From Nemopilema nomurai (Eukaryota > Cnidaria > Scyphozoa > Rhizostomeae > Rhizostomatidae), in assembly GCA_003864495.1 (NCBI GenBank), contig ML133450.1:1343734-1407733 (forward strand): a stretch of 64,000 nucleotides of DNA, given 5' to 3'. Positions within the stretch are counted from its first letter, which is position 1. Every line of letters begins with the position of its first letter. The position numbers and the translations under genes are program-made. Below, piece by piece: positions 31,234 through 63,418 of the stretch. Below the pieces are notes generated by a model. That model did not search any database. It was not told where the DNA came from and was given only the letters and a program-made list of their open reading frames with translations.

Positions 31234-32127
31234 TCAAAACCATAGATTGCTTTTTGCCGATCGCTTAGAGTGCCTCTTAAAGCTCTTCTTTAAACGCATT
31301 AGTTCAAGTCTCTCTCTTTGATGCTTAATGTCCAACTCAAGAGACTTCCTGGTCATAGATTCTTGAAATGCTTCCAACCGATTATCTGAAAAATCCGCCA
31401 GTACACGCATGAAGTCTGAAAAAGTACGTAAAAAATCATTTACTAAACATTTCTTGGTAGTCGACCGTTTTCAAAGTTTCTGGCAATTAAGAAACAACTC
31501 TAAACGGAATCTTGATCATAAACAAGCATCTTTTCAGCTAAATAGATTTTTGAATAGCATCATTCTACGTTAACATTACATAATCAGCAAAGCAAATTAT
31601 GAATGAAAGCGATCTAGTGAACTTGTTTCGATTTGCAGATAATGGTCTCTGCATCGTTCATCGAGATAGGTGTCGCAACAAATAATATTCAATTCCTTGA
31701 TGCATTTTCCTTGTCACGACTTTTCTTTGCAGAGCCTTTCTCAAGTTATGGGAGCCTCCAATCCATAATGTTATTTAAAGGACGAAAACATTTCTGTTTT
31801 GATCTGCCAATAGTTTATCTGATAATTTTTGAATTCGGCAAAGAATACGTACCCACGTTTGGATGAACCTTTTTGCGTTTCCTTAGCTCTCTGAACACTG
31901 TCCAAAGGATGCCAAGGAATGTCAAGATTCCGAGCAAATACAGTTCGAAATTTAGAACCAACCAAAATGAAGGGGTCTTTGGATCAAACAGCTTAATGTC
32001 AGGTGGCTTCTCATTTGAAAGCTATGGAAAGGTAGTTGTTTTACGTGAAGAATACAGAATATCACGTGGAAGCAGAGACAGTAAGGTAGACACAAAGACA
32101 AACACTGTCAAACAGGCGAGTAGAGAG

Positions 32128-32188
<61 letters not shown>

Positions 32189-35100
32189 AGATCATTTTTA
32201 TGATGACAAGATCATTTTTCAACTGCCATTTTTTCCCCACTGCAATAATTCTTTTTTGCTATCAAGTGAATATGGCATTAAATATTCGCATCTGAACGTT
32301 TCAATACTATCTTGGAGAGAAAGAGAATACGGGATGCCAAAGCTCTTTCTTTATTTTGTTGAAATACAACGCCACATTAAAACCTAATGGCACCGGAGCC
32401 ATTGTGGAACACGATGGGCAACTCTACTAAAAAAATGACACCGTGTGTATGTGAAAGGCTGGCTATGCCAAGGGAAACAAATCTAGCTAACATACCTCTA
32501 GCTTGCTTGTCATGTTGGCAACGAACCCTGTGATCCTGAATTGTTCGGAGGAAATGTGGCTCTTGAAGTCACTTTCGAGACGGACAAGCTCCTTGGAAAG
32601 AACGAAACCAAAGCCAGCAGTGCTAGCAATAAGCTTCTTCACTTTGAGATTGAGTTCATTGATAGTGGAAGTGTAGCTCGCAGTTTCAAAGGCGTCGAGA
32701 AGAGCCACATCAACTTGCTTCTTTTTCAAAGCAGACAGCACCTCTGGTGCAGTTCCAAACCTCATATCTACACAAGAAAACGTTTATGAATAATAAATGC
32801 AAAAATGCTGAGAAGGCTCTTGAAGAACAAGGCAAGTTTGAAGCTCAGAGTGGCAGCTCTGATCTTACACTAAATTCGTAACAATACGCTTATTGCAATG
32901 TTTCAGAAAAAATTCAGAAAAATTAGATGTATATCAAAAGACAATTGACGGTGCAGTTTTAAAACGCTTTCCACCAAAGCGTGTCTTTGATTTTCTTATT
33001 CAGAGTATTTTGTGTAGGTTTTCCGCTGAAATGAGTCAATGCTAGAGCTGCTATGATCAAGTGCTTGGAATTGCTTAGCTAGAATGGAGTGGCAAGTACC
33101 TGGTAAAACCCTGGCGTTTCTTCGTACAGCCAGACCGTGTTCGAATGAATTGTTGATAACGGCTGCCTAAAAGTAGTAACCCGTTTAAAGCCATATGCAC
33201 TGCAGAATCTTTCCAAATACTTGAAAGCAGCATACCATTGTAAGAACAAGCTCAAACAACGAAGTCAAACAACGAGTAGTCCATTAAAGGATACTTGTGA
33301 TAAAAGGGGTATTGCAAGGCGATAAAGACAGCGGGGATTAGTCATTTACTATTTATTGATTAATGTCTTTGATACTTGCAAGAGATTAGATTGTGAAATT
33401 TAGTACAGCAGACGACTCTTGGTAGTCATGGGCCAACCAATTTTATCTGGAACGCTGTTAAATTATGATTTGGCTAGCTAGTGTTATGAAATGGTTCTAA
33501 AAGGAAATCCAACACGTGTTTAAGGAGATTTCAAATGTCATGAAATAACAATATGCAAATATAAGAACGATGCCGATTAACTGAAGAAATGGCCTAGGAA
33601 CGCAAAAAGGGGACAGTTAGCTATGACATATTCGTAATGAAAGCAAGCATCTTTGATGGGATTTAGTAGAATAAAAAGAGGAAGACGTTCATGCTTACAT
33701 TCGTATCGTACAGAGTGGCTGATGGTGTTATTGTCAGTGTAGTGACAGTCGATGTCAAAGCGCCAGTGAGGATTCCGATCAGGACTAGTCCAATCAACGT
33801 CCAGGCTATGCCGACTATTCTTCCAAGGAATGTTTGTGGTGTAACGTCTCCATATCTATGGGGAAAAGTAAGATTGGTGCTGGCAATAGCATGAGAAGTT
33901 ATGCAAAGATAGCAGAATGCAGATGATTTAATCTACCTGTCGTCTCATTTAGCAAGCAGGGTTGCACAAAAACTCACCCAACAGTAGTCATGGAAACAAA
34001 GGCCCACCACAAGCCTTGACACACGCCACAAATGTATCGTCCACGAGAGAATTGGTCATTTTGGAATTGCTCCTAAAAATAAACAAAAATTTAAGTCCTC
34101 ATTTCTACCAATAAACGATGGTAGCAAATTCGTTTTGAAGTCTTGGATGGCTCACTGCATTATATTGTACTACAACGAATGAAATCCTGGAAATGATCAT
34201 TACATGAATAATATCCTTAGTTGTTGCAAGCTATCACAAATACTTAGAGTGCATTAGTTTGCATTGCAAGCATATGACGCTCTCTCTTTATCATGACCTT
34301 TTGGTAAAGCATTGCTATTATTGTTTTTTTGTTCCTCATGATAACATTTACTGTTAAAAATTGTGAGCTTTTGGTAACAAATGCTCTTATATCTACCGGT
34401 GATCAAATTCTTTGCCAATGGGTTAAGGTATTATCAGCAAAATTAAGTAACACTATTGAGTATGCAGTTCTAGCAAACTTAACTGAATCGTGGTAAATGA
34501 TGGAAGAATTGAAAAGAAATACTACTTTCGAGAAAAAAACGTATCGGGTAGAGCATCGTAGTTCTACTTACAACAGACCAGAGCAGAATACCAAAAATGA
34601 TGCTCATTAGAATTGAGATCAGCACCATAGGCCAGGCTGATTTCACTGACTTCAGAGCATTCAAAGTTTTAGCGGCATAGTCAATTGTTCCACTAATAAT
34701 CATTGCACTTCCCCCAGAGTGAACAAGCAGCACAAAAATGTGGCCGTCCATGAAGTTGCGATTTTCTGATCTGCCAAACACCGGAAACGTTATGTGGTAG
34801 CCTTTTGCAAGGGCCGCAATGCATTCATCTTCACTTGACTTGTCTGGTCTTCCCCCAATGGGACCGACGTAGTAGTTCACTGTGGGAGCAACCCCGTCAC
34901 AGGTGCCACAGGACTTGCTTATCATGTCGTCTGTAATCTTTTTGAACAGCCCTGAGATCCTCCCACTCTTGCTTTTCAAAAGGTAAGGTTTCTTTTCGTA
35001 CCAATTCACAAAGATGTTATCTGGACATTTACACGTTTCTGTAAAACAACGAGGGAAAGTGAATAAAAGGTCAAATACAGGTTAGCCTTTTGAAGCAGAA

Positions 35101-38100
35101 AAAGCGACTGTAAGAAAACAAAGGGTAGCAAGTCAGCTAATACCATAGGCCAAGTCATGTGATCCCTCCTACCGCCAGTGTATGTATCTTTGCTTTTCGT
35201 AATACATCCTAATCGGCGTTATCACTTACAAGGTCATATATATTTTTGTAGCCTACGCATGCACTCTCTCAATGTCCTGAAGAACTCTATTGTTTAGTGA
35301 TTCTCGGATAGGTTAATATTAAGCAGCTGATATAACATTAAGCAACTTCTGGAATAGATCGTTTAGGGAGGAAAATACTGAGTGATATGTGAGAGATGGC
35401 TCTTCTTAGGAAAAGACTCTTAGAGGTACAACGTACCCTTTAATCATTTCATTCTTGTATTGGATGACCTGAAAATCAAGCTAATATGGAATCGCCCGAA
35501 GAGCTTTTGATCTCGTTTAGCACCTAGATGCTAGCATATTCTATTAGTATTTCTCTAATTTGTGCAATGAAGCAATCAACTTTTATCTATACAACGTAGA
35601 TCATTAGCTTATGGTTTTTATGAATTAGTTTTGTATACTCTCTTTTAAATTCTCCAGAATTGCTCGTGTAACTAGCACCCTTTAACACTATTAGCAGCAT
35701 CTATAGAACATCGCTTGAAATTTGCTGCGTGTTTGAACTATTGAAAATAGCTCGTACATGTTCACTAGCTGTGAGCAAACTTGAAAGCTTTCCAGGTAAC
35801 GAATTCAGCTTTGAAGATTGAACGCTCTCAGGTAGAGCACGACACATATGGGTACAGTCAGTTTGTTTTGCAAAAGGATCTGTAAGTAACACTGATAAAA
35901 AGCTTGTAAAAACTAAGGACGAAGGTTCTATATGCCAATATGCTTATCAATATCAATTTTTATTAATGCTTCCAAAGCATTCAAAGTTTTCACAAAAAAC
36001 TTACTTGATGAAATTGGCTTCGAATAGGGACCACTGCCAGCCGCAGTAAAGCCACACACCGATACTGCATATGTTGTGTAGCTGAGAAGGCCAGTGATCT
36101 TCAGCCTTAGCGTGTATTTGTCGAGAACAACCTTTTTGATGTCACTATCAGTTACCACGACATCTTCAGTGGACACTTGAGTTTTCACGTATCTAACTAT
36201 GTATCCTCTCAATTGGCCGTTCACTTTTTCTTTTGGAATTGCGTCCCACGTGACGGTCACTTCGTCCAGTGAGTACTTCTGTCGCACTCGGGTGTTTGGA
36301 GGTGGAACTGATGGAGCTAGGGGAAAATATCAAGAGTTTTAGTTTTCGTTTTGCTCAGGATAGTCCGCTGCTGTTGATCGTTTCGATATTCTAACAATAA
36401 GCTAATCGTTCTAACAATATTTAGGTACTGCGCAACTCAAGTTTGATAACATTACGATGAAATCTCTCCAAATTCGTGGGAGCGCAGCAATTATTGGGAT
36501 GAAATTTCCAGTTATAATCACAAACCACAACCAGCATGACAGGAATTATTCTAGAAATGGGTGAAAAATTTGTTGGTCGTACAAAACTTCACAATTGCGA
36601 AAAACAAGGGAAACATGGTTTTAGCATACTGAAATACTAGTAGTTACGTGCAAATACCAGTTTTGAATTGTCGTGATTCTATAATGTAAATATTTCATAA
36701 TCTTTATACTTCATGAACCGTATAACACTAAATGAAGACGATATAAAATCCTCTCTCACCTCCCTCTGGAGTTTTCGTGGCGTTGGTAACACCTGGTCCT
36801 TCCCCGACAACTGTGTGCGCTCGTACGATTATGACGTAGATTTGGAATGGCTCTAGATTTTCTAATATCACATCAGATGCACCATAAGCTACTTTGGTTT
36901 GCTGATAACTAGGTTCTCGATAATTCTTGTAGGACACGATGTAACCAAGAGGAATGCCATTGAAGTCGTAAGTTGCAATCGGACTCCACTGTACATAAAT
37001 CTTTGTTGGACCGATCGGTCGCAGTTTCAAATGAGTAGGAGCGAAACTTGGTTCTGTAAAAAGGTGATTAGATTTGCATGAATTGATAGCTACAAACCAG
37101 GAGAAGACATTTTATTTCAAAGCGAGAAATGTGATGAAATCTGAACAATATACAAAGAAAGATACAATGATCTTGAGCAAAGCCTAAGAAAGATACAATG
37201 ATTAAAAACTTCATAATATAGAATGTTCTGGACAAAAGTTATCCTAGATATCTAATATCCTTTACAATATTAAAACATATAGCGGACATAAAGCCTGAAC
37301 TGCTTTCATGGACTAGGGACCGCGCCAGCTTTAGACTGTAACCTTCAGGCAACATCTCTAAAGATTTTAGGTTTTCATTAAACTCTATAGACAGCGTTCA
37401 TCCATGATTCACAGCCGATGGAACAGAATAAGAAGGATGTTTTTAGCACTATAAACCTTCATCAATACAAGGATTATTAATTTCTTATTCATTCTTCGGA
37501 ACCTCTACACATTGCTACAAACAAACCAAACATGCTTTCGCGTTTTAAACATAAAGTTCCTCCGAGAACCGATCGTCAAGAGTACCAGTAACATTAAGTA
37601 CTACCCGCCAGGTATTCAGATGCCTCCTTCGTAATTGACATTGAAAACATAGCCTCTAAAAGTCTGTTATATATTGAACAAGTGGCCAAAATGAATGAAT
37701 TATGACGTGAAGGTTGTAATTACTTCCTTGCAGTGTTTTCACCAGCAGTTCCTTAGTGGCAAGTCCATTCGCATGAGTAATCGAGATTGTCATCCGTACT
37801 CTGTAAAAGGTTGTCGCCTTCAAACGGGTTGCAGTGAAGCATGTATAGTTGAGCGGGATCCCTCGGACCTCCCAAGCGCCAATGTCCGAATGCATTTCAC
37901 GGTAATACAGATAGTAACTTGTGGTGTTGAATTTAGTGCTTATGTTCTTTGGAGGATCCCAGCAAAAGGTGATGGTATGAGGATCAATATGGCTTGCTGT
38001 CAGATTCTCTGGAGGTCGCGGAAGAACTGTGAAAGGAAACACAATGAAATGCATCTAGAGCTTCTGACAGTAAAATTGAATATCATCTTTAAGATTGTGA

Positions 38101-41100
38101 GCAATTATTAAATCACTTTTGCGCAAATGCATTTTGTGTGTGTTTTTAGATCGATCTGTAGAGCTCACGGCATCACGTCCAGCTTTAGAAAAAGGTCTTG
38201 CACTTGCCAAAGGCCTTTTGCTGAATAACAAAATCACACCAGAGTTTGATCAAGCTAGCTTCATTTTCTTTAGGGACTCCAGCTTCTATTTACCCAAGGA
38301 AATTAAGCTTGGGGAGACATCTCTTCATGTCTAGCATTTGAGGCGAGCCGTTAGAATGCAAAATTTAGGCCTGTATGATTTTAGACTATTGTCGACTATT
38401 CTACAGATGCTTACTGGATGCTGGTGCAGTCTCGTTTTCCATTCACACGTCAAGGCCATAATCAGGATCAAGGCTATTGTATGTTGAAATAGCGAAATAA
38501 GTTTTGATAAGTTTTGAACGATTTTATAGGTATTGTTGTAAATCAGGAAATAGTAACCAACCATTTTGTGACTCGACATCACTGAGAGAAACGTTCAGCT
38601 CAAACACTCGATGCGTTGATGCAACATAGTCTTGTAAGTAAATAACTTCGGTTTGGGATACTTGCGAGTAGAAGACGCCAATATTGGCGACAACAAACTC
38701 TTTGCTGTAAAGGATTGAAACGGCATATGCGTGACAGGTACAAACTATAGAGGCCAGGTTTTATGAAACGAAATTCATCAGATAAAATTAAAGTAAATTG
38801 CAAATTACATGTATAATAGGATATTGAAAAAGATATTACATTAAGAGAAATTGCAAGTGGGAACATAGATGAAAAATCCATCAGTATATGAATGACTTAG
38901 TAGCTAATTGGCCTATACTATTGGATGCACTTATAACTAGAATAGAGTTGTTCGGTAAGACTTATTGAAGCAAAGCCAAAGAAAAATAATTCAAAATTGC
39001 TATCAAAACACGTCTCACACACGCAACAAAACATTTACCTAACGCTACGCCGGCTTCTGCTTTTGGGGAAATCTCTCCTAAGGGAAGTAAAGCATGTGGT
39101 TAGCTTCTTTGAAAATGCGTCCGAAACAATGTGAGTATAGATAATCTACGAGTTTATGTTCCTTGAATTTGGGAGTAAAACGAAGGAAAAAACTATAAAA
39201 CAAAAGCAAAACAATTTTGGAAAATGTTCCTATCCATTATAATCTGAAAATTTCTTCCTATGCGATCAACTCAAAGTTGAATGTTTGAATTTTATATACA
39301 GCTCAGTTCATCAACCAAATAAATTTTCCTACAGTTGCTCAAACTGGCAAGTAATAAATTTATCACATTACCAAAAAGAAGACGCCGATTGGTGAAAACA
39401 TTGCAAATCACGTGATCCATCACATAACCGTCACGTGGTTCTCGATTCACAACTGGTTATTTATCTGGTCCTCCTCTGCATTTTTCAACGTTTGTCTACT
39501 CTGAAAATGCGCCTTAGAAAATGCCCTAATTTCCGGTCCTTCTCGTAAGTTTTCAGTACAAAAAACTTGTTCTCGCATTTCGCAGTGTTTGCTCTACTAT
39601 TCGTACTATCATGTTTAGTATCATAAGAGTAGGCTTGTATTCTATAAGTGACACCAGATATTTATTCATTATTAAATAAGCTGTAAAGTGACTGACCATA
39701 CCTGAAGCTTAACACTCTGATACCCGACACAAAAGACGCATTTTTGTAAGCAGCAATAACCTAAGAGATAAACTGATGTGAAAATCATCTTTCCTCCAAT
39801 CCTAAAATTGAAAGCCGCCGCAATATCAATGCCAAACAGGAAATCAAAGTACCGCTCCCTAGAAGACTGAAAATCACGTTTATATTTGTGATGTTTAGTA
39901 TTGATTCAATATTCAATTTAATGTGTATTTTTTGAATGAGTAGCACTGCTAGGACTGTTAAGTAAGTTGTCGATCAGGAAAATCGTCTTACGTTTGCCAG
40001 TATCTTTGCAGATAGGTCAACAGAGATCGGGCTGGCAAGGGAATGGTATCGAAAATTCCATTCAAAATCTGTTAGACGAAACCAGAAGAGGATTTGCATG
40101 CCTGTGAAAAGAAAAAGCATCCATTAGACTGAAGAGAAATCAACGATTCTTGAACCCATGCTTTGGTGGCAATCCTTATTTCTGGTGAAACTAGCAAAGA
40201 GAGGCCATAGAACCAGGCCTGACTTCTTGCTTGAGCTGACTAATAAAAAACCATGGAACCTTGGCTTAAATGGCAAGCCTTCGTCACCTGCTTTCAATAC
40301 TCTCCCATCAATATTTACTTTTCCTTGTGTAGACTTCAGGCATCTCCCTAACAAGGACTAGAAAAGATTAATCAGTTTAAAAAATGTAGTACTGGGGGAA
40401 TCTATGAAATATACCTTGGCATTTGTGATTATTGCACGGTCGCTTCTTGTATGGACTTCCTTCGCAAAATTTGCCATCAAATTCGGGCCTTGGATTATCG
40501 CAATAACGGCGTTGCACGAAGTCTCCTCCTCCGCATGCCTGACTGCAAACACCAGTTTCCTCCCAGCTACTCCAACCTCCATTGGCTTCAAGTGGAAACA
40601 AAAAAAATAAGTTACTCCAACATTGGTAAAGGGGTGAAATTGAAATGTTCACGCAGTATTTTAAAGTTCAGGTTAGCTCAATAGGATTCAAAAAGGGTGC
40701 AGACACAAGCTACAAATAAGGAAACGCTATTCGAAATTATCTGAAACCTTGTGTATTGATGAATTAACTAGCTCTTTGTGTTTATACCAACTGCTCGAAA
40801 AGGCTTTCTCAAGGCCAACCAGTATCAAAACAAACTAGAAAAAACTGGCAAAACGATAATAATTGTAAGTACTATTAGATCGCCTAGTTAAGACACCAAA
40901 GTCGTCATCTCTATGGCATTTTTGGAGATTCTTCTGAGGTTCAAAGATACATTCGGAAAAAAGCTCTCATTTGTTCTACCATACTTAGCAGCAAAATTCA
41001 CACCAACTTTGGAGCACAATTTTAAAACCGGACTCACTCCATGAATCTGCAGTTATTGACATTTTCTAAACATGGAAATTTACCTGCCTTTCTGTCTAGT

Positions 41101-53100: not shown

Positions 53101-56100
53101 AAAGAACAAGCACGTCATTTGCTCTGAGGCAAAGAAGACAATGACAAGCTGCTGACCTTGTTTGAAGATAAATTCAAAGACTTCCATGTCAATACTATTT
53201 GTTGGGATTTTCACAGCTAAGGATTGGCCTGTCCTGTAGTGCAGATATTGGCTTCTGGGTAAAACCATCAGTCCATCCACTGAAATTGTCGACAAAAAGT
53301 TTCTGGTGAAAATCATTTGCTTGCTTGCTTTATCACATTTGTCTTTCTTACTTAAATCATTGTCGTCGTTGTAGGTGATAAACTTGCTACTTGAAATACT
53401 CTGAACACATCCATTTTTCGAAAAGTGAAAGAGATCACACTTCTTTTTTATATGATATAGTTGCGACACCTTCTCGTTGGCAAAGCAACGACCACTTGAA
53501 TGAAAAATTTTGAAGACTTGCTCTAGAATGAGATAATTCAAAATTACAGCTTTAAAACAGTTTTATCACTTTTTACAAGTTAAAGATATGCATCTTCACT
53601 AAAAAAATCAATCTAATTGCGTGGCATAATATTTTTATGCATTTTGGAATGAAGTTGAACAGTGCTTTACCGTGGTACCTGAACTTGTTAAATTAGTTAT
53701 GAATCATTTACCTCCAGTCCTAAGCATTTTTAGTCTTCCAGTCTTTGTGATAATAACTGCTCTGCCATTCATCGACAGAAGAAACCTCGCTTCGACTTTT
53801 ACAGGCACAGTGGTCCACACCTTCTCTTTTGGCACATAGCGGTACAAATTCGAATCATTAATCCGGAAGAAATGACTTTTACTATCTGTAGCAATGTGTT
53901 CCCCTTCCATGCTATACAGAGTAATCTGTAAAAGAACATGGGTGTTGGAACATGTGCTTTCAAGATTCAGAACTAACAAGGCTGTCATGCAACTGTAAAC
54001 AATTATATCATCGACCTATGCCCTAAAGGATTTATATACCGTCAGGTTTTAGGTCCTTTACTTCTACTTGGAAGCAAATGGAGACGGAAAAGTTGCTCTA
54101 ATGCTGAATTGAATTCAAAGAGCATTCAAAGCTGACAATTAAGACATATGGAAGCTAGAAAAAGTAAAAGGAGTCTTAGCAAAAAGAAACTTACATCCAA
54201 TGATCGATAAAATAGACTTTCAGCTTGGGCAAAAAAACAGCTAACTTTATGTACCTCAAATTTCATTTTGTTACTCATTTTGCAGCTGAACGAAACTGAA
54301 GTAAGAGACCATTGAAGAGTTCTAATCCCTAAAGCTACAGTGTAGAAATGTCTTGATTGCATGCTTATGTAGACTAGAAGACACTAAAATTTCTTACTTG
54401 GCAAATTTATCAGTGAGGGTGGAATGAAAGATTGACTAATGTCTTTCCATCAAATCCAAAATACGTCTTTTGAAGCTGCTATTGATTGTTAATATCATTC
54501 TACATAAATGCATGATAAAATGATTAGAACTCAAAGGTACTAAAAGTACTAAATTACTTTATGTCCACCGTGGCAATCGAAAGCTTCCAGATCGAAAGCA
54601 TAAATTCTCCCATTAGCTTTGCGAGCAAGGCACATGGAAATAGAGCAAGCAATGTCAGCACAGGCGATGTCCATGTCATGAAATTTGGTGACATGGCCAG
54701 CTTCAGAGACGACCATGCAGAAGAGGCGACCTGTGCGTTTAATGAAGAACGACAGCCCTCGCTTAAAACCGCTTAGAATGGTTTGCAACTGAAAGGAGCC
54801 TGAAAAAGAAAACACTAGACACGTTATATAGTCTGAAAAGAAGTCATGGTGTTGCAAATCAAAGAGCTTGTCAGAATTTGCTACACTCCTGGAAGCAGAA
54901 TAGCAAAGAATCAACCAAACTCCTCGGTTCGATATGGGGAATATTTCGTTCCCATTCTCTGGCAGAAAAAAACCCGAATTCTCCTTTATCCTTTCAAAAT
55001 ACTGTTGGCAACAAGTTGCACATATAGGGTCGTATAGGGAAGAGATTGAGCCCAAAAAAGTTGCTCATTTTGCAGCACGGCCACATTATTTGTAAGGAGA
55101 TGCGGGTGGGTAAAAGGGCGAAAGAACTGTTATCAGTATTCAAACAGCTTTGGCAGACACCGCGAGTTCTGTTAACAGCGTTCGATAAGGGGACACAAAC
55201 TTTGGCAGGTTAACAAGGAAAAGAACAGGTTGCAATATTAAAATTCATGATAATTTCTGGCCTCATTTAGAAAAAAGTTCCGTCAACCTTTACCAAACGC
55301 TTGTCATCGACTACTTCTGGTATTTCTGAAGTTTTTGCAGTTGAGTCGCCATAAACATAATTCACCAACGACATAATTTCTTTAGGTACTCAACTCTAAA
55401 GGTAGGTCCAAACATAAGTGAGCTAAAACTGGGCACAAGGGAGCTTACCATACGAAGCTTGCGGCACAAGGGTCCAATTCGTGCCAGAGGGATTGCTGTC
55501 ATTAACACCGTGTCGGATATAAAGCTGCCCGGATGTGTCTATTGCCCAGATGCCATTCAGCCCTGCAGACACTGTCGTCATTCTTCCTTCCACTTTCAAC
55601 CAGAATTGATCCGGGTGATAAAAGTAGACTTCATTGTTAGTGTCTACTGCCCATAGTGATCCTGTCTCATCGTTGAAAGTCAACTTAGTGTAGTTTATCC
55701 CTCTCGGTGGCAAAGGATCATATCCTGGATAATTCGCATAATAGCTGTCAAACTATTCGAAGCACATTATAAAGAATCATGGCTAGTAATGTGCACACGA
55801 CTAATGGCTAGAAACAGACACAGAAGAATATATTTGTTAAAGATAAATGGGAATTTCCATCGGAAGGCAGGAAATAACTAGAACTTCTAATATCGTAGCG
55901 ATTAATCTAAAACTTTGTATAAAGGTATAGAAGTAAGTAGGGTAAAAAATTTTGGGCTGAGCATTTCTTCCAAACTTAAGTACAAAAGTCTAAATTCTGC
56001 AGGTACTTTTTAATTGTATAACTCGTGACCAGGTGCATTTACAAGCGCCTTCATTTCTAGAAGTATTCACTTCTTATGTATTCTCAAAATCCTCGAAAAA

Positions 56101-59100
56101 TATTCAGCGATGGTCAATTATTTTGAATTAAGAAAAAACGTTTCACTAGAATGTATAGTGAAAAGTGCATTAAATATAGCCTACCAGCATATTTGAATGA
56201 GTTGAGCAGGGTGTTGGGACGGGCGTCAAGAAATGGTGATTTCCATATGGCTATTTCGTCAAAGCATATGAACGGTGCATCTCGACCTAAACTGACGTTC
56301 GTTGAGCTTGCGATGGCAGCAAAGCAAGTGCCATTTTTGATATATGCCGGATAGCCATTATAGGATACATACAAATATTTTGTATTCACATCTACATATA
56401 TGTAATGATGCGTCCAAATACCAAAAAGCTCTTCGTACAAGCTGATGTCCCACTGGCACGTTTCCCCGCTTAGAGACAGATTTGCAGCTAAACCGTGAGA
56501 GGTTCCCCATATTCTACTAGCTTCTGGACTGTGTCTGACAAACTTGATGGTCAGCATTCCACTGTCGAGCAACGTTATTTCGTCTCTTTGCTGCATACTT
56601 TGCCTAGATGGGATCATCGCCCAGTAGGTCAATATAAAGCTACCAGAGCAAGTCTTCGTCAATATGCAATCGCTTTCAAGTTCTTGGAGACGAATCGGCG
56701 ATGCCGAAGTCGTGCAGATTGCAAGGTTTGCAGGCCCTGTTGTCAAGAAGTGTGAAATGTTGCCACCAAATGGCGCATCGTTTTCGGCAAGCACAATGTT
56801 TGGATAATACGCGCTCGGCCCTAGCATACTGTGCAACTGTTTCATGCTGTCGAAACTTATGTATGATGATGCATCCTTATAGATCGTTGTATTCATGGCT
56901 GAGGAGAAAGAAAAACCTATCAATCGCTCTTCATTGCTTGCATCTAGTTCAAAAAGGAAGTAATGATAACAATTACAGTAGAGTAGATAGTTATCTTCAG
57001 CCAGTTGCGGATCGAAAACACTAGAGGGTGGTAAGAAGATCGCATGATTGGTTATAAGTGTCACTTAACACCTAACTTTAGAAGAGCCGAAGGGAAAAGA
57101 CGAACTCTTTCTATCTACAAAGAATGGGATTTTCTATTGACATGTATTTTGATTATTTTCCGACGGTTGCACGCTCTGAAAAGTGTCGAACGAAAAAGAA
57201 GTTTAAGTATGCAAAAACAGGTTCCGCTATTTCTAGCTATTATGAAATTTTGTACCGCAAAGCACTTGTTCACATAGTTATTTTTCTTTATTTCTTTATT
57301 GATGGAGACATTGGCATAAGATTAAGCTTAGATCTACACAATGGCAAGAGATAGCATGCACACAGCTGCTCAAGTATATGAGCTTTTGCAATTCAATGAA
57401 TAGCTTGACTTTGATTTCTAATTGAAGGATCATTTATAATCTGCCATAATCATTTGTTTCGGAAGAACCATGTCCACACCTATACTATGGAAGAGTAATC
57501 TGGGGTTTCTTCAATGACGAGTGCTATCCGTTTGTCAAGTGGACACAGAATAGGTAATAGGCAGAAGAGACACTCGTGTAAGAGCCCTTTGAAGTTTTGG
57601 TATGCAATGCAGGAGTAATGTGGTCTGACATGGCTAACCTCGTTTTCGCGCTGATAACACAATAGGAGCTATATAACTTTTCTTAACAGCACAATTGAAC
57701 AGTGTCCCTTCTGCCTAGCCCCAACCTGTCAAGAAGATACAGCAGAGTCATATACTTGCTTGTTACTAATGCAAGCTTTTTCTACCATATACCAGCATAC
57801 TGGCAGTGAGTGATCATTGAATGAAATGAATACGAAGACACGTTCCTACCACTTGAGCAGTCATCGTGGACATATCGTCGTGAATACGGCGGGCATACAC
57901 ACTGATTGGTTATCTGATTGCAAACTCCATCCGCTGCACAGCCACCAGCACACGTAGAAGTAGCTGAATGAGTGAAATGATGCTAGACATTGCAATACTT
58001 TTGGAATTGATAAGAAATCATGCCAAGATAAAGAGCACACCAAGAAGAAAATTCAAATTACCAATTATTCGCCTGATCAATGTATTGTGCAACATGAACT
58101 TAGGCCTTCTTATCAAACGAACTTTTTGCTTCCTAAGACAATACCTCATGAGGCGTAGACAAAAGACATTTAATCTCTTGAGACTTTAGGTCAAGGACAC
58201 ACATTGATTTAGCAAGGCCAATGTTATCGTGCGGCTACTGGTATACCAAAAGCTATTTAATGATGTAGATGCAGAAATGCTAGAAAAAGCGGAACTATTT
58301 TTCGCATACTTAAAAGTAGTTTTTTCGTCCGACACTCCTCAGAGTATGCAAACGTCGGAAGATAACCAAAAAACTGACCGAATAAATAGCCAGATGCGGA
58401 TCGAAAACACTAGAGGGTGATAAGCAGAGCACGTGATTGGTTATAATTGGCCAATCTGCGTTACTTAACACCTCACTTTAGAAGAGCCCAAGGGAAAAGA
58501 CGAACTCTTTCTGTCTACAAAGAATGGGATTTTCCATTAAAATATAGACAGACTCCAAAACACCTAGGTGAAAGGACGACCTAGCTTGCCCAATTATACG
58601 AAAATTGTCGTCACTGTATGTTTTGGCGCAATCTGGATTCTCTTAAAGATGTTGTCCTATAGCCGAATCGCAATTAATTTGGGCATGTTGTCCTATAGCC
58701 GAAAAGTGAGGTGTTAAGTAACGCAGATTGGTCAATTATAACCAATACGCGCTCTGCTTATCACCCTCTAGTGTTTTCGATCCGCATCTGGCTATTTATT
58801 CGGTCAGTTTTTGGTTATCTTCCGACGTTTGCATACTCTGAGGAGTGTCGGACGAAAAAAGTACTTTTAAGTATGCGAAAAATAGTTCCGCTTTTTCTAG
58901 CAATTGTGAAGTTTTGTACCACAAAGCACTTGTTCAGATGCAGAAATCTTAGATCAGGCAACCTAGATGATCTTAACATACCGTATTTGCGAAATCTGCT
59001 GTAGAATCAGCTTGAAATTCCCTCGGTATTAGAAACAAAGCAACTTTTGGGCCATTATTGCAACATTTATGTATGATTAGAGCTTGGTGCTCATTAGGTC

Positions 59101-62100
59101 TTATCGGGGCGAACTCCGAATAATACAAACATCAGCCATATATTCTAAGACCTTTTCCAAAAGCTAATAAAAGCACATTAAACATAATTTTGAGGAAATT
59201 GGTCAACTTACTGCTAGTTCTTAATGCTACAAATTTGTTCAAGTAAACAGAAACAAGCAACGAAAGACAAAAACTTTACCATGGAGAGTTGGGCATAAAC
59301 TTTGCACGCTGATAACATGGCTCTCAAGTGCTGTATCGTAGAACTGTACACAAGATATATGAGCCATGGCATTGGTCACCACTGGGGACTCTTTCTCACC
59401 ACCGACAAAAATTTCAACCGGATCAGTCAAGCGCTTCACGTTAGGCAAGTAGAATTCATCTTTTACCTTGAGCAGCGAAAAGTTATCATGAGTGTGAAAT
59501 AAAATAAAGTACTAAAACCACTAAAATGGTAATTTGTTTTTTTAATTAAAACGAAAGGTAAAAATTGTTTCTGTGTAGTTCAGCGTACAGTAACAAAATG
59601 ATGCCATCTGTTGTTTTTCGTTTTGCCATGTTGTGTTGCAATGCATTTTCTACTTGTTGCGTTGTGTTGTTTGTGTGGCGTCTCGATTTGTTTGCTTTTT
59701 TCTGCTTTGTGGTGTTACATAATACTGTGATCATCAGTTGCACTTTGCATTTTGTAAAGTTGAGTTCTGTTATATTGTGTTGTGCTGTGTTTGGTGACGT
59801 AGTAACTTTTTTCGTTTTTCGTTATCTAGATCTATGTACGCTGTATTATGCTAGACGTGATTATATATCACTATAATCTGATACTAATGTGCGCATTGAG
59901 TTTTCTTGTATTATGCCCATTGCTAAATTTTGTTCCTTGTGGAGGCGTTTTATTTTGATGGGTCGCTCTGGGCGTGACTTTTCTCCTGTGCTGCGCTGCA
60001 CTTACGGTTCATGATTTCAAATGGTAGATGCTTTTCTGTGCTGTGTAATATATCGTGACAAAATAAATAACTAATGTCATGATTGACACTTGATATAATT
60101 ACTACTTCCAAGGCAACATTAAACCGTGCTACACATACCGTTGAATTAACAAATGTAGTCAGGGTCTTTAGAGTTTGCGAGTAAACCAAAGCGACATAGC
60201 TCCAACTGTTCTCCTTGATGAGCGTTCGAGATTCAAGCGTAATCGTGCCAATATCTCTTTGCAACCTGATAAAAGAAAAACACTGAAAAACGGCCTGCTT
60301 TGATAATAGAGACTCACCAAAAGACTTCGGATAAGAAGACTGCTACTAAAAAGTATTTCAAGGTAACCCAACAGAATTATAGTGTACGTGCAACAGCATA
60401 CCAACTAACAACCTAAATAGAAATAATTGACAGCAATATGTAAGAAATTCTTTGGTAACCTGCGGCCTTCAAAGGTGTCTCGAGAGGATGCTTACACGAT
60501 GAAAATGTTCCCTGAGGAAAGAAGGCTAACTGATAAAGCAGGAATGCCGTTTGCACCAATCCATATCAAAGTGCTGTCCGTCATCAATTGGGAGCGCACT
60601 TGGAAAGACAGCGTGAATTCGCCACTGTTTTGAACTGGCTGCTTTGCAACTATTCTAACAACACTGCCACTGAAAAACCCGTCCACCAGTGGAAAGCCAA
60701 ACATGTCCGTTATCAGATTCTTCTCAGCACCGGACACTCTATCTACTCGCAAGCACCGTGAACCGTAGCATTGGTGGCCATTGTCAAGAGGAACTAGAAA
60801 TACAGGCAGTGGCATGTTGAGGCTCTTCATAGCATCTTCAAAGGAGCTTGCACTGTAATTCGGTGGGTTAGCTGATACCGGGAGATGGCTGCAGGAATTC
60901 ATATGAAAACTGATTGTATCGATTGCAATGTCACCAACAGTGTTGGCTCCTCTTATCGCTGTGAAAATCACCTAGTACAAAAGGGATACAGTACTGTTCA
61001 GTATTATATTTCCATAGTTATCTTTGCATCAGAGGTCTTAGAAACAAAGACAATGTCTATGTTTGGAGTAGTAATGCTGAGTAGGCATCAACTTGCATGC
61101 ATTGGTGTAGCCTTAAGAATAGCTTAACATTTTACCTTAAACTGGGACGAAGACTCATTCAGACCAATCAGTGGCACATATGCATTCATCCAAATGTTTC
61201 CTTGACTTCCAGAAAGTCTAAAGATTTCCTTAAAGAGGACATTCAGCTGCCAAATGCTGACAGATAGGACACCGATGCCCGTGCCATACATGTGGTACCA
61301 AAATGTGAGACACTTCATTCTTGGAACAATTGGCTTTGTGCGATACTGTTGTTGGTATCCTGGGTATGGCGCTAAAGACGCATCTGCATACAGATATTTG
61401 TCTGGAAAAAAGCCAAGTTTAAGAATACAAAGTCGAAACTACAGTAGGCCAGCAAGGTGAATGTAATGCTAAGTGTTGATGTAGAGATGTCTTCTTTATG
61501 TCAGCCCAACATGGAAGATCACCCAATGCAGCTCTTGGTCTACTAGAAAGTTGTTGCCTTTAGTTCGACTTAAAGTGATTAGCATTTAGGCTTCCAACGA
61601 TGCAGAGACTATAACAAATTTTACGTGAACTAAGCCAGATCATTAATTAAAGCATTGGAGTTAAGAGATAATGGAGTGACTATCATTTTGCTCTTTTTCT
61701 GTACTTTTAATCGACATAATCCATAGCCAAAATGTTGAAGACGCAACCAATGATTGATCAAAATCTGAATGTATGCTCAGTAAGCACAATAAAGACCATA
61801 AGAATGTTGCAAAGAGGCTATGTTTCTGTGTAAAATTCATTCACTGACGCAATGGAAAAATTTTCGGTGCTTGCATCATAGCACTGCTTTCGGCTTTCCT
61901 TCCAATCAATCAATTTTCATTCTTGGCACTTTCACTCAATTTGATACTTTGAAGCCTATTTTAAAAAACCTCTCTTTTGCTTTGCTGTGCCCTCTCAGAA
62001 ATATATATATGTAGGCTGGGCTGTAATCAATTATTTAAATGAAAATAAGAAAAATGGGTGGCATTTAATAGGTAAAAGTAAAATCTCAAATTCACCAGAT

Positions 62101-63418
62101 ATAAAAGTGCAATGTTCGCAAGGCATAACTAGTAGATTCAAAAAATACCCTACCACAGAGAATCAACTGCCTGCAGAAATAAACTAAATGATGCAATAAA
62201 TCTGCTTTGAGTTAGGAATCGGGATATTTAAAGAAATCTTTGACAATACCTGGTCTTTTGTCCGTGTATTGGATAAGATAATTTGGTTTTTGTGACGTTT
62301 TTATATTCACCGACTGCTCACGTGTAGCTATCCACTCAAAAATGACGAAGAAGTACCGTCTCCAGCTGTGGAGTTTCTCGTTTTTCCCGGCTTCATAGAA
62401 CGGCAAAACAATGTCTTTAAGATCTGGTGTCATGTATGTCCTCCCATCAACCCAGGGTCCCGTTGTCCAGCTTATAGGCCCTGCATAAGCATCTCTGCGG
62501 AAGTTTATGGTCCTGCATTTGTATTGGTAGAGCCCGTCGTAATTATGCGAGTATACTCCGTAGATATTTGCTGTCAATCGCTGGTGGTTTCCAGTGCCAG
62601 CATAAAATCTCACCCTAAAGCTCTTCATATCATCGTAGTTGAATCCATCCTCAATACGAATAGTAAAACCCATGACAATAGCTACGCCGTACGGAAATTC
62701 CTCTTTAGCGACGCCGCTCGTGGTAGTAAGGTAACTGTTGTCGCAGTTATAGGACCTGTACGTTGAGAAGTCGACAAAAAACCCATGGTAGTCCAGCACG
62801 CCAACGGGATCACCTGTGCAAATGAAATTGAGCAAAACTGAACAAGGCAACTTAAAGAAGATAAAGTTATTCTAGCATTGGTGGGAATCGCAGATCACAA
62901 AGGTGCCTTCGTAAGTTCAACAACGGTGTAGGAAAATTGGCATTGAAAAAGGGAAAGCCGAACATTCACATATTCTGATAGACTTAAACTGCAAAAACAG
63001 CGCATACATTGTATTAGATGAAGCTGGTAGAGAACCACCACCCAGTTGGCCTGGTGTGAGGTGCAAACACACCAGATTGCTTTCGCAGAGCAAGGCAAGC
63101 AGAGTTCTCGAAGCACCACTGCTGGTACGCAACACACCATTGAGGCCCCAAACGAAAGGATAGCCGCATCACAGGTAGTAAGAATCCCCGTACAGATACT
63201 AGGGCCGGCCACGTTATATGCTAGTACTCGATCTAGCCATGAAATCATCATTTAGGGGAAAAAGGGGATACGCTGTATTATAATAAGATTATCATTACCT
63301 GGATCTGCGCTAAAGGACTGGTCCTCACAGGGACCCGTATCTTTGGTGTCTGTACAGCCAGCTGATGATTTCCAATCCCCAAGATCGTCCATTGCTGTTA
63401 TTCTGAAGTCGATCTTAT
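31234..63418 (-). CDS. Giant mosaic receptor with GluR-like, K+-filter channel core (5' partial)
   Basis: Exons 5' to 3': 63418-63299, 62813-62250, 61401-61136, 60971-60496, 60265-60139, 59466-59280, 57963-57850, 56898-56185, 55724-55449, 54799-54558, 53925-53712, 53522-53157, 51953-51823, 51296-51238, 50315-50110, 49946-49650, 48928-48599, 47580-47254, 47039-46260, 45956-45630, 45451-45044, 44741-44379, 43888-43574, 43206-43036, 42543-42253, 41856-41701, 41427-41254, 40585-40415, 40101-39992, 39760-39702, 39077-39039, 38704-38562, 38026-37724, 37053-36760, 36316-36005, 35038-34572, 34072-33978, 33855-33699, 33166-33100, 32767-32496, 32021-31853, 31415-31234. All 42 join GT-AG in one frame of about 3,612 residues ending at TGA 31236-31234. 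Residue numbers here and below count from the first complete codon in the window. Nearly all ectodomain module borders are phase 1, as in shuffled extracellular genes. Domains in order: MAM half, laminin-G-like, EGF, a second concanavalin-like region, tectonin repeats, SEA-like, FN3 x9, TSP1, Cys-rich, TSP1 x3, SEA-like with furin site, FN3 x3, GluR-like channel, tail. The signal peptide must lie beyond the window. Separate genes are conceivable, but no internal start, stop or long gap breaks the series. I do not recognise a named orthologue. Confidence 0.88.
32134..32186. repeat. (AG)n microsatellite in a channel-gene intron
   Basis: About 26 tandem AG units lie in the intron between the exons at 31853-32021 and 32496-32767. 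A plus-strand frame of Arg-Glu repeats is a by-product. Confidence 0.95.
33978..33993 (-). other. Exon end carrying the first half of the selectivity filter
   Basis: The pore exon ends ATG ACT ACT GTT GG and is followed by donor GTGAGT. The next exon (from 33855 downward) opens A TAT GGA GAC after acceptor ATAG. Joining restores Thr-Val-Gly-Tyr-Gly-Asp, with the first filter glycine codon divided by the phase-2 intron. Confidence 0.93.
36005..38026 (-). other. Three membrane-proximal fibronectin III domains
   Basis: Exons 37724-38026, 36760-37053 and 36005-36316 each encode one FN3 domain of 98-104 residues with symmetric phase 1 borders. Each shows the core Trp (CWDPP, VQWSP, VTWDA), a Tyr in the G-Y strand (SYYLYY, GYIVSY, GYIVRY), the late L-x-x-x-T/Y-x-Y-x-V pattern and a closing GxGP-type turn in the last two. 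They link the cleavable SEA-like module to the S1 lobe and so form the stalk that stays next to the channel after cleavage. Confidence 0.92.
38562..40101 (-). other. SEA-like module with furin-type site RSRR
   Basis: Four exons (39992-40101, 39702-39760, 39039-39077, 38562-38704) encode about 117 residues (2724-2840). The pattern of an F-x-F strand, a helix ending in VIAAY, an S-F-VSGIRVLSF strand, a loop, an EFVVANIGVFYS strand and a last helix is that of SEA domains. SEA domains usually self-cleave at a GSVVV loop. Here that loop is a separate 39-bp exon encoding RDFPKSRSRRSV, which lacks GS-VVV but contains R-S-R-R (2787-2790), a good proprotein-convertase site. The SEA assignment is from pattern only; the basic site is directly visible. 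Confidence 0.65.
40415..43206 (-). other. Four TSP1 repeats and a Cys-rich module
   Basis: TSP1 exons at 43036-43206 (GGWTEWSSWFSCSRSCGGG), 41701-41856 (YSAWASWSYCTKTCGGG), 41254-41427 (NWGQWSDFSKCNQTCGNG) and 40415-40585 (GGWSSWEETGVCSQACGGG) each have the W-x-x-W, C-x-x-x-C-G-x-G and six-Cys layout. They commonly bind glycans or matrix and carry C-mannose and O-fucose. Between the first and second is a 96-residue module (42253-42543) with CxxFC near its start and RRLCNC at its end, a pattern I remember from other marine-invertebrate extracellular proteins but cannot name. All borders are phase 1. Confidence 0.92.
43574..49946 (-). other. Nine tandem fibronectin III domains
   Basis: Exons 49650-49946, 48599-48928, 47254-47580, 46260-47039, 45630-45956, 45044-45451, 44379-44741 and 43574-43888 encode FN3 folds, recognised by P-x-x-P starts, GY-x-V/LGYxV strands and Y-x-V-x-V/A-x-x-x-x-G-G-G endings. 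The first (49650-49946) is divergent. The 780-bp exon holds two domains, joined at RTDQHEP, with extra Cys pairs (ACSCKGCGP, CGRTVKGLGP). Many N-x-S/T sites suggest heavy glycosylation. This stretch is about 1,050 residues and would form a long flexible rod. Confidence 0.88.
50110..51953 (-). other. First SEA-like module ending in RKKR
   Basis: Exons 51823-51953, 51238-51296 and 50110-50315 encode about 131 residues. The opening ISFRFRDLEFYDHFRDLEG followed by a long amphipathic segment ending in LKQIFAESDFYIK resembles the start of the second SEA-like module in the same gene. The rest carries four to five Cys and ends DRKKRD, placing a furin-type RKKR (1349-1352) immediately before the first FN3 domain. 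The fold is inferred only. Confidence 0.5.
52704..52801. repeat. 38-bp minisatellite, 2.6 copies
   Basis: A unit starting GCCTCGCTATTGAAAAAAGG and ending CTGATTACTGTG occurs twice in full (52704-52741, 52742-52779) and once in part (52780-52801) with few mismatches. It lies in the intron between the exons at 51823-51953 and 53157-53522. Confidence 0.9.
53157..55724 (-). other. Tectonin-type propeller repeats and lectin-like region
   Basis: Exon 55449-55724 contains two clear tectonin repeats (GSLWAVDTNNEVYFY, then VSAGLNGIWAIDTSGQLYIR and WTLV), as in fish-egg lectin, tachylectin-1 and TECPR proteins. Exons 54558-54799 and 53712-53925 continue with weaker repeats (ARKANGRIYAF; KVWTTVPVK). 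Exon 53157-53522 encodes 122 residues with SSGRCF, a KKKC...F.FS.NGC pattern and a second C...F half, which could be a beta-trefoil-like carbohydrate-binding fold. A glycan-binding head is inferred. The donor GTCAGC of the last exon is chosen on phase. Confidence 0.6.
57007..57271. mobile_element. Rearranged copy of the dispersed repeat family
   Basis: The left part (GCGGATCGAAAACACTAGAG through AAAGAATGGGATTTTC) matches the left copy at 58393-58540. The right part (TTTTCCGACGGTTGC, GTGTCGAACGAAAAA, CCGCAAAGCACTTGTTC) matches the right copy at 58815-58935 in opposite orientation, so this copy looks like a joined or partly deleted foldback. It sits just upstream of the exon at 56185-56898. Confidence 0.7.
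58278..58903. mobile_element. Large foldback element (about 200-bp arms)
   Basis: The left arm 58278-58479 and right arm 58703-58903 are near-perfect reverse complements. Examples are TTCGTCCGACACTCCTCAGA against TCTGAGGAGTGTCGGACGAA, and GATCGAAAACACTAGAG against CTCTAGTGTTTTCGATC. The 220-bp centre contains GTTGTCCTATAGCCGAA twice. No transposase is encoded. It lies in the intron between the exons at 57850-57963 and 59280-59466. Confidence 0.85.
60139..61401 (-). other. MAM C-terminal half and start of a laminin-G-like domain
   Basis: Exon 61136-61401 encodes KYLYADAS...CLTFWYHMYGTGIGVLSV, and the next exon opens VIFTAIRGANTVGDIAIDTI. Together these are the second half of a MAM domain, including its core Cys, Phe-Trp-Tyr-His-Met-Tyr-Gly and the closing D-I-A-I-D. 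Exons 60496-60971 and 60139-60265 then begin a laminin-G-like fold (FTLSFQVR, SWSYVALVYS). I could not find the usual MAM first half directly upstream. Confidence 0.8.
62250..63418 (-). other. Most N-terminal exons in window, unrecognised domain
   Basis: Exon 63299-63418 encodes 39 residues including DDLGDWKSSAGC and DTGPCEDQSF. Exon 62250-62813 encodes 187 residues rich in Tyr and Phe (GFTIRIEDGFNYDDMKSFR, WRRYFFVIFEWIAT). The phases (1 and 1) match each other and the MAM exon. I do not recognise the fold. The first exon faintly resembles the DW...TGP...D opening of MAM domains, in which case the 187 residues would interrupt a MAM domain; this is speculative. Confidence 0.6.

Follow-up and report, generated by a model that had tools for sequence, protein, structure and literature searches.

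A predicted K+-filter glutamate receptor-like channel joined to a giant adhesive ectodomain, with a candidate SEA cleavage site, in the jellyfish Nemopilema nomurai

We analyzed a 64,000-nucleotide stretch of the Nemopilema nomurai genome (contig ML133450.1, positions 1,343,734 to 1,407,733; hereafter the window). Sequence comparison supports the presence on its minus strand, between positions 63418 and 31234, of a single fused gene that joins a very large adhesive ectodomain to a channel of the ionotropic glutamate receptor (iGluR) type with a potassium selectivity filter. A first-pass annotation had proposed such a channel with an ectodomain of more than 3,000 residues, and homologous proteins, paralogous loci in the same exon order, and the predicted fold now bear that proposal out. 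Missing from it were exons upstream of the window, a SEA cleavage module, and the large family to which the gene belongs. The whole explanation that we favor, with a probability of roughly 0.7, is that one gene encodes a K+-selective, ligand-gated iGluR-type subunit with a cleavable adhesive arm, in which binding would lead to K+ efflux and hyperpolarization.

The gene model draws on an exon-chaining script and on a homologous protein. The script returned a single long minus-strand chain (63392-31815) with a score of 270.9, against -0.01, -0.3, 5.0, and 5.1 for control chains (the plus strand, both strands of 7000-30500, and reversed sequence); this contrast is inflated because the script took its codon table from the very exons that it scored and because a neighboring real gene, parts of which lie in the control stretch scoring 5.0, reached just that value. 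Independent of the script are the tblastn matches of P0121, a homologous protein of 4,039 residues, which run collinearly from 68089, a coordinate outside the window, down to 31237; an automatic chain of 42 high-scoring segment pairs covers 3,739 of its residues at 60.8% identity. Three exons dropped by the automatic chain were inserted or lengthened by hand, and the S2 lobe of the ligand-binding domain, the M4 helix, and the tail were completed by reading exons by hand. The resulting composite has 47 exons, 42 of them in the window; an additional 39-nt microexon brings the final model to 48, with 43 in the window. Its sole stop codon stands at the end, and all 47 introns are GT-AG, as the script demanded. 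The 42 exons in a single frame described in the first-pass annotation share both limits of our composite but omit the microexon and the exons outside the window, and the argument from frame is weak because 25 of the 48 exons are of phase 1-1 and could be joined in any order. The case for fusion stands on homologous proteins and paralogous loci instead. Weak exons between the TSP1 and FN3 modules had been suspected of being spurious, a suspicion rejected since the P0121 matches and the microexon show them to be real. The 5' end of the model lies beyond the window, with upstream exons on the same contig (C84 in the 212.9-Mb assembly that we searched) at 1408074-1408457, 1410171-1410443, 1410938-1411097, and 1411454-1411818; this upstream piece matches Laminin_G_3 (2.7e-12). 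Neither the true first exon nor a signal peptide was found for the model, and its 16-nt first exon is doubtful.

A homologue search with a 2,384-residue model query, scored on the channel alone, listed ten proteins. Seven of them (1,763 to 4,039 residues) combine the channel with FN3 domains and mostly also with TSP1, MAM, laminin-G, or others; P0128 to P0130 were excluded as other channel types. Three of the seven, Rhopilema esculentum LOC135690773, Dendronephthya gigantea LOC114532360, and Nematostella vectensis LOC5512975, are each named "uncharacterized protein," and the remaining four come from EukProt. The model is 62.5% identical to P0121 over 4,041 columns, 55.6% to the Rhopilema protein over 3,964, and 30.5% to P0123 over 4,113, and a TC[KRQ]C motif marks the junction between FN3 and the S1 lobe in all seven long homologues. 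The closest named proteins among the matches listed are cnidarian, and a wider profile search, which gave 60 proteins under length limits that shut out long fusions, showed no readable non-cnidarian animal name with this receptor type. The genome also gave 136 matches to the Cys-loop receptor domain, which speaks against a sponge or ctenophore origin, as this domain is not known from those phyla. Channel-only relatives also exist, in which Pfam finds no further domain: P0001 (499 residues), Nematostella LOC5516852 (489 residues), and a Clytia protein (658 residues). In P0124, from EukProt, PHD fingers at residues 118-219 stand ahead of the F5/8C and FN3 domains, which is probably a gene-model fusion artifact.

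The same arrangement recurs elsewhere in the genome. Two channel queries, with loci typed by hand from the best-scoring candidates, gave 37 S1 loci among the matches listed, and at 30 of them a filter exon lies no more than 6 kb away. The count could err in either direction, since the best candidates alone were scored and since contigs such as C56 and C77 share near-identical places, which suggests uncollapsed haplotypes. A same-strand FN3 match lies no more than 1.5 kb upstream at 18 of the 37 loci, where 0.008 would be expected by chance, and no more than 8 kb upstream at 29, again among the matches listed. (The 64 FN3 places comprise 63 from the genome search and one from a fetched locus, without which the count is 17 of 37.) Within 1.5 kb of the 37 loci, no FN3 match lies on the opposite strand or downstream. 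Eight loci have no FN3 match within 8 kb among the matches listed, which is not evidence of absence. At all six loci that were fetched (one on C122, two on C92, and three on C24), three same-strand FN3 exons directly precede S1 and TSP1 precedes those, in the kept order TSP1, GS[VI][VI]A, three FN3, S1; the C122 locus and both C92 loci have eight to ten more FN3 matches farther upstream. By these comparisons, the window gene is a member of a large cnidarian family. Contigs C60 and C73 carry array-like clusters, of 4 and 9 loci respectively, in which both S1 and filter exons are present; the spacing between several of these loci is about 20 kb, and some may be haplotype copies.

The channel part of the model matches Ion_trans_2 (6.6e-13) and Lig_chan (1.7e-9) in Pfam and is laid out as follows.

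34572-35038, minus: TCKC junction, S1 lobe of the ligand-binding domain, and M1 (exon reading; model helix 136-157)
33978-34072, minus: pore helix and TTVG half of the filter (exon reading)
33699-33855, minus: GYGDVTP half of the filter and M2, which is M3 in iGluR numbering (exon reading, Pfam)
32496-33166, minus: S2 lobe with conserved acidic residue, ALLDAF (exons 33166-33100 and 32767-32496; exon reading, tblastn)
31853-32021, minus: M4 membrane helix and basic stop-transfer (membrane prediction; model helix 370-403)
31234-31415, minus: cytoplasmic tail with long predicted helix, and stop codon (60.7% identity to the P0121 C terminus; model helix 409-463)

Joining exons 34072-33978 and 33855-33699 forms the filter TTVGYGDVTP, with its TXVGYG signature between M1 and M2. 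The intron splits the codon of the central filter glycine, and all six fetched paralogues have an interruption at this position too. It is because of this intron that an exact search for TVGYGD codons, which hit 28 genomic places but no position on contig C84, missed the gene, a result initially counted against the claim. Membrane segments are predicted at residues 3698-3716, 3761-3779, and 3934-3956. The predicted fold includes an S1S2 domain of the periplasmic-binding type, and in a fold search the channel matches GluR0 and whole iGluRs. In the comparison with GluR0 and the bacterial binding-protein K+ channels, a profile match reaches an E value of 9.5e-42, and the A1 profile, built from cnidarian-type channels alone, places K+ pores at the top in PDB and also finds one plant iGluR (8.8e-10). 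The ligand-binding domain was first detected with the A2 profile, where the match is not independent of the bacterial sequences mixed into it, and afterwards also by the fold search. GluR0 conducts K+ through such a filter in an inverted-pore topology (PMC13099474), and a synthetic chimera of an AMPA receptor and a K+ pore is gated by glutamate (PMC12332018). Sequence and predicted fold together support an iGluR-type channel that would be selective for K+. The intron between the S2 and M4 exons also holds an AG dinucleotide repeat of 32.5 copies (32122-32186).

The cleavage module lies between the TSP1 repeats and the membrane-proximal FN3 exons.

38562-40101, minus: SEA-type domain (exons 40101-39992, 39760-39702, 39077-39039, and 38704-38562)
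39039-39077, minus: 39-nt microexon encoding SFRRDFPKSRSRRSVSKEF, with a furin-like RSRR site in the SEA beta2-beta3 loop

The predicted fold of this region is that of a SEA domain, and the structure model places RSRR in the beta2-beta3 loop; the microexon aligns with SFRREFPSKRTRREISKEF of P0121 and GFRRSLASKRKRRETRKEH of the Rhopilema protein. The GSVVV-type self-cleavage motif is absent from the window gene, in which EF replaces GS and the furin-like site is added; all six fetched paralogues have the self-cleavage-type GS[VI][VI]A. SEA modules are known to be cut in this loop, either by furin or by themselves at GSVVV/GSIVA (PMC6954182). Motifs and predicted fold thus suggest that arm and channel may form a two-fragment receptor, and the module makes more plausible the contact- or matrix-coupled hyperpolarizing function that had been suggested for the gene.

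The remaining modules form the arm and its stalk; domains were called by a Pfam scan of model pieces.

63299-63418, minus: first coding exon in the window (P0121 tblastn and model)
62250-62813, minus: large exon, domain without a Pfam family (63.8% identity to P0121)
60496-61401, minus: MAM and beginning of a laminin-G-like domain (exons 61401-61136 and 60971-60496; Pfam MAM 4.8e-18, Laminin_G_3 1.9e-5, below cut-off)
59280-60265, minus: laminin-G-like domain, continued (exons 60265-60139 and 59466-59280; Pfam, tblastn, model)
57850-57963, minus: small cysteine-rich exon, earlier a candidate EGF (tblastn and model; no Pfam match)
56185-56898, minus: large exon, laminin-G-like by eye alone (49.8% to P0121; no Pfam match)
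53712-55724, minus: tectonin-type propeller region (exons 55724-55449, 54799-54558, and 53925-53712; Pfam Tectonin 2.8e-12, Hyd_WA 4.3e-13)
50110-53522, minus: five exons with a weak first SEA-like match (53522-53157, 52426-52376, 51953-51823, 51296-51238, and 50315-50110; tblastn; Pfam SEA 0.001, below cut-off)
43574-49946, minus: nine FN3 counted in eight exons (49946-49650, 48928-48599, 47580-47254, 47039-46260 with two FN3, 45956-45630, 45451-45044, 44741-44379, and 43888-43574; Pfam fn3 2+4 stretches; tblastn and model)
40415-43206, minus: four TSP1 exons and a cysteine-rich insert (TSP1 43206-43036, 41856-41701, 41427-41254, and 40585-40415; Pfam TSP_1 9.2e-36, four stretches)
36005-38026, minus: three membrane-proximal FN3 exons (38026-37724, 37053-36760, and 36316-36005; Pfam fn3 three stretches, 3.3e-30)

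The MAM, tectonin, and four TSP1 modules of the first-pass annotation are all recovered by Pfam. Its 12 FN3 agree with our exon-based count, of which Pfam separately finds nine stretches; its laminin-G, under the cut-off in the window model, reaches 4.7e-26 in P0121; and its EGF module is unconfirmed, the exon giving no Pfam family. Neither a GAIN or GPS family nor an LIVBP-type amino-terminal domain is among the Pfam families of the scanned pieces, the extreme 5' end lying outside the model. The 3,560 ectodomain residues contain one hydrophobic stretch, a weak one (1.72, residues 858-876). The cysteine-rich insert (42543-42253), 97 residues between TSP1 repeats 1 and 2, is 71% identical in P0121 and discernible by eye in P0122, P0123, and P0125, with no Pfam match above cut-off.

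With regard to the ligand, a profile alignment matches the Arg of the window protein's FGRSEN to the ligand arginine of the bacterial proteins. At the acidic position in S2, 23 of 27 aligned sequences have Asp, one has Glu, and three have Asn. From iGluR structures, we take the S1 arginine to contact the ligand carboxylate and the S2 acidic residue the amino group. The window gene may accordingly keep both canonical contacts where the family does not, and the alignment suggests that, for this gene only, the ligand is probably an amino acid.

The favored explanation would run as follows. The subunit would follow the plan S1-M1-P-M2-S2-M4, its pore inverted relative to ordinary K+ channels and its amino-terminal domain replaced by an arm that is about 3,500 residues long and consists of laminin-G, MAM, tectonin, nine FN3, and four TSP1 modules, below which a cleavable SEA domain and a three-FN3 stalk would sit on the ligand-binding clamshell. 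The arm would grip matrix, a neighboring cell, or a captured surface; the SEA domain would be cut, by furin in the window gene and by itself in the paralogues, the halves staying together until pulled; a small ligand, probably an amino acid, would bind between the S1 and S2 lobes, with a bias set by the arm's state, and open the pore; and K+ efflux would hyperpolarize the cell. We infer the K+ selectivity, the ligand, the actual cleavage, and the coupling to force or contact. Support is strongest for the fused protein and declines through the iGluR-type K+ channel, the two-fragment receptor, and the amino-acid ligand to contact or force coupling.

Several observations weigh against this explanation. 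The fusion, the presumed current, and the putative cleavage all come from genomic sequence and predicted folds, and the homologous proteins are largely gene predictions that may share common biases. The window M3 lacks SYTANLAA, named as the M3 gate motif of iGluRs (PMC3483616), and reads GILTGALTSTV; the three C24 paralogues (1274169-1277182, 1317054-1320853, and 1344141-1346975) have the filter GTHGYGD or GTQGYGD instead of TTVGYGD. The S1 column holds Arg in 4 of 26 MAFFT-aligned sequences (the window protein, P0121, P0122, and P0124) and other residues in 22: Lys in P0123, Asn, His, and Tyr in P0125 to P0127, and non-Arg residues in 18 others. At the C122 locus and the two C92 loci it is Lys, Tyr, and Tyr. 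Moreover, MAFFT puts the bacterial arginine a few residues off the FGRSEN column, which makes its placement uncertain. Because the S1 arginine varies, glutamate gating would not be general and the ligand is uncertain; glutamate as a family-wide ligand was dropped on these grounds.

The channel could instead be an amino-acid-gated K+ channel for chemosensation, its arm merely positioning or anchoring it, with no gating by contact or cleavage. This is a serious competitor, if somewhat short of even odds: the S2 position is mostly Asp, the K+-filter receptor AvGluR1 responds to several amino acids (PMC12226733), and the short channel-only relatives imply, unless they are partial models, that the channel module may work without an arm; yet the order from TSP1 to S1 kept in all six paralogues is more constraint than a passive anchor needs. 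Rather doubtful is the reading that places the protein next to adhesion GPCRs and Notch as another split, force-releasable surface receptor, an adhesion-type ligand-gated K+ channel in which a SEA-cut arm held noncovalently would be pulled off or moved by contact, altering clamshell and K+ current, and cnidarians would possess a repertoire of inhibitory contact channels varying in ligand contacts, filter, and cleavage mode.

It is also conceivable, if improbable, that the product is a ligand-free, receptor-like adhesion protein that keeps the fold and is mechanically or constitutively gated or nonconducting. The variable S1 arginine and the three unusual paralogue filters would fit such a protein, but G-Y-G-D is invariant in 21 relatives of A1, the S2 Asp is mostly kept, and the window gene has both canonical contacts in the profile alignment. 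That two or more neighboring adhesion and channel genes were falsely joined by exon chaining seems very improbable indeed. The many phase 1-1 exons mean that frame hardly discriminates, and the fusion is read from genomic sequence and homologues; however, full-length homologous proteins in other species run across the supposed break, same-strand adjacency far exceeds chance, the FN3-S1 junction with its TC[KRQ]C is conserved, and the arm has no strong membrane segment. We rejected this reading on the homologues, the locus adjacency, and the absence of a strong membrane anchor in the arm.

The components of the favored architecture have precedents. GluR0 of Synechocystis and the bacterial binding-protein K+ channels share the amino-acid-binding fold, the TVGYGD filter, and the inverted pore (PMC13099474), but GluR0 has neither M4 nor an amino-terminal domain (PMC11479355, PMC12332018), whereas the window protein has M4 (32021-31853), a long tail, and a giant ectodomain. 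AvGluR1 of Adineta vaga, named with GluR0 as a K+ type (PMC12226733), is likewise eukaryotic, with M4, a K+ filter, and opening by several amino acids (PMC12332018, PMC11479355, PMC12226733); it is described with the usual iGluR architecture, hence without an FN3/TSP1/SEA arm, a distinction drawn from description, not sequence. Metazoan iGluRs (AMPA, kainate, NMDA, and epsilon) share the order S1-M1-P-M3-S2-M4 and the predicted fold, but the window protein has a K+ filter in place of the Q/R/N site, no SYTANLAA, and no LIVBP-type domain that we found. By fold match, Gpr126/ADGRG6, mucins, and Notch also join an ectodomain to a signaling part through a SEA-type module, the signaling part here being a K+-filter iGluR-like channel instead. 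Polycystin-1 family proteins are likewise channel related, with a very large adhesive ectodomain and a self-cleaving module, but their membrane part is different and the module is GAIN/GPS, not SEA. The available text of a metazoan iGluR survey (PMC6307864) does not mention potassium, selectivity filters, fibronectin, or GluR0, and our literature search, whose scope left out subscription papers, found nothing on an FN3/TSP1-bearing K+-filter receptor in the text it reached. The channel type has precedents in GluR0 and AvGluR1, and the cleavable adhesive arm in adhesion GPCRs and Notch; their combination is, as far as we know, new, and the first fusion of an adhesive arm to a ligand-gated channel via a cleavable SEA domain.

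Two other genes lie on the minus strand of the window. A long open frame at 5844-2986 encodes six NHL repeats, a filamin repeat, two B-boxes, and a weak RING, making it a TRIM-NHL gene, presumably LIN-41/TRIM71-like. Exons at about 27000-14000 carry a SPRY domain (4.1e-14) and, by eye, helicase-like motifs; we take this gene to resemble DDX1.

Animal iGluRs are known mainly as excitatory cation channels. A K+ filter in a cnidarian family that is both conserved and expanded would allow the same ligand-binding fold to inhibit directly, and this in animals whose major synaptic transmitters are not considered to include glutamate (PMC12226733). New K+-filter receptors also bear on whether iGluRs arose by the joining of a K+ pore and a binding protein. 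Finally, the fusion of arm, SEA domain, and channel makes contact-gated inhibition directly testable, and it suggests that cells could couple holding or touching something to electrical silencing.

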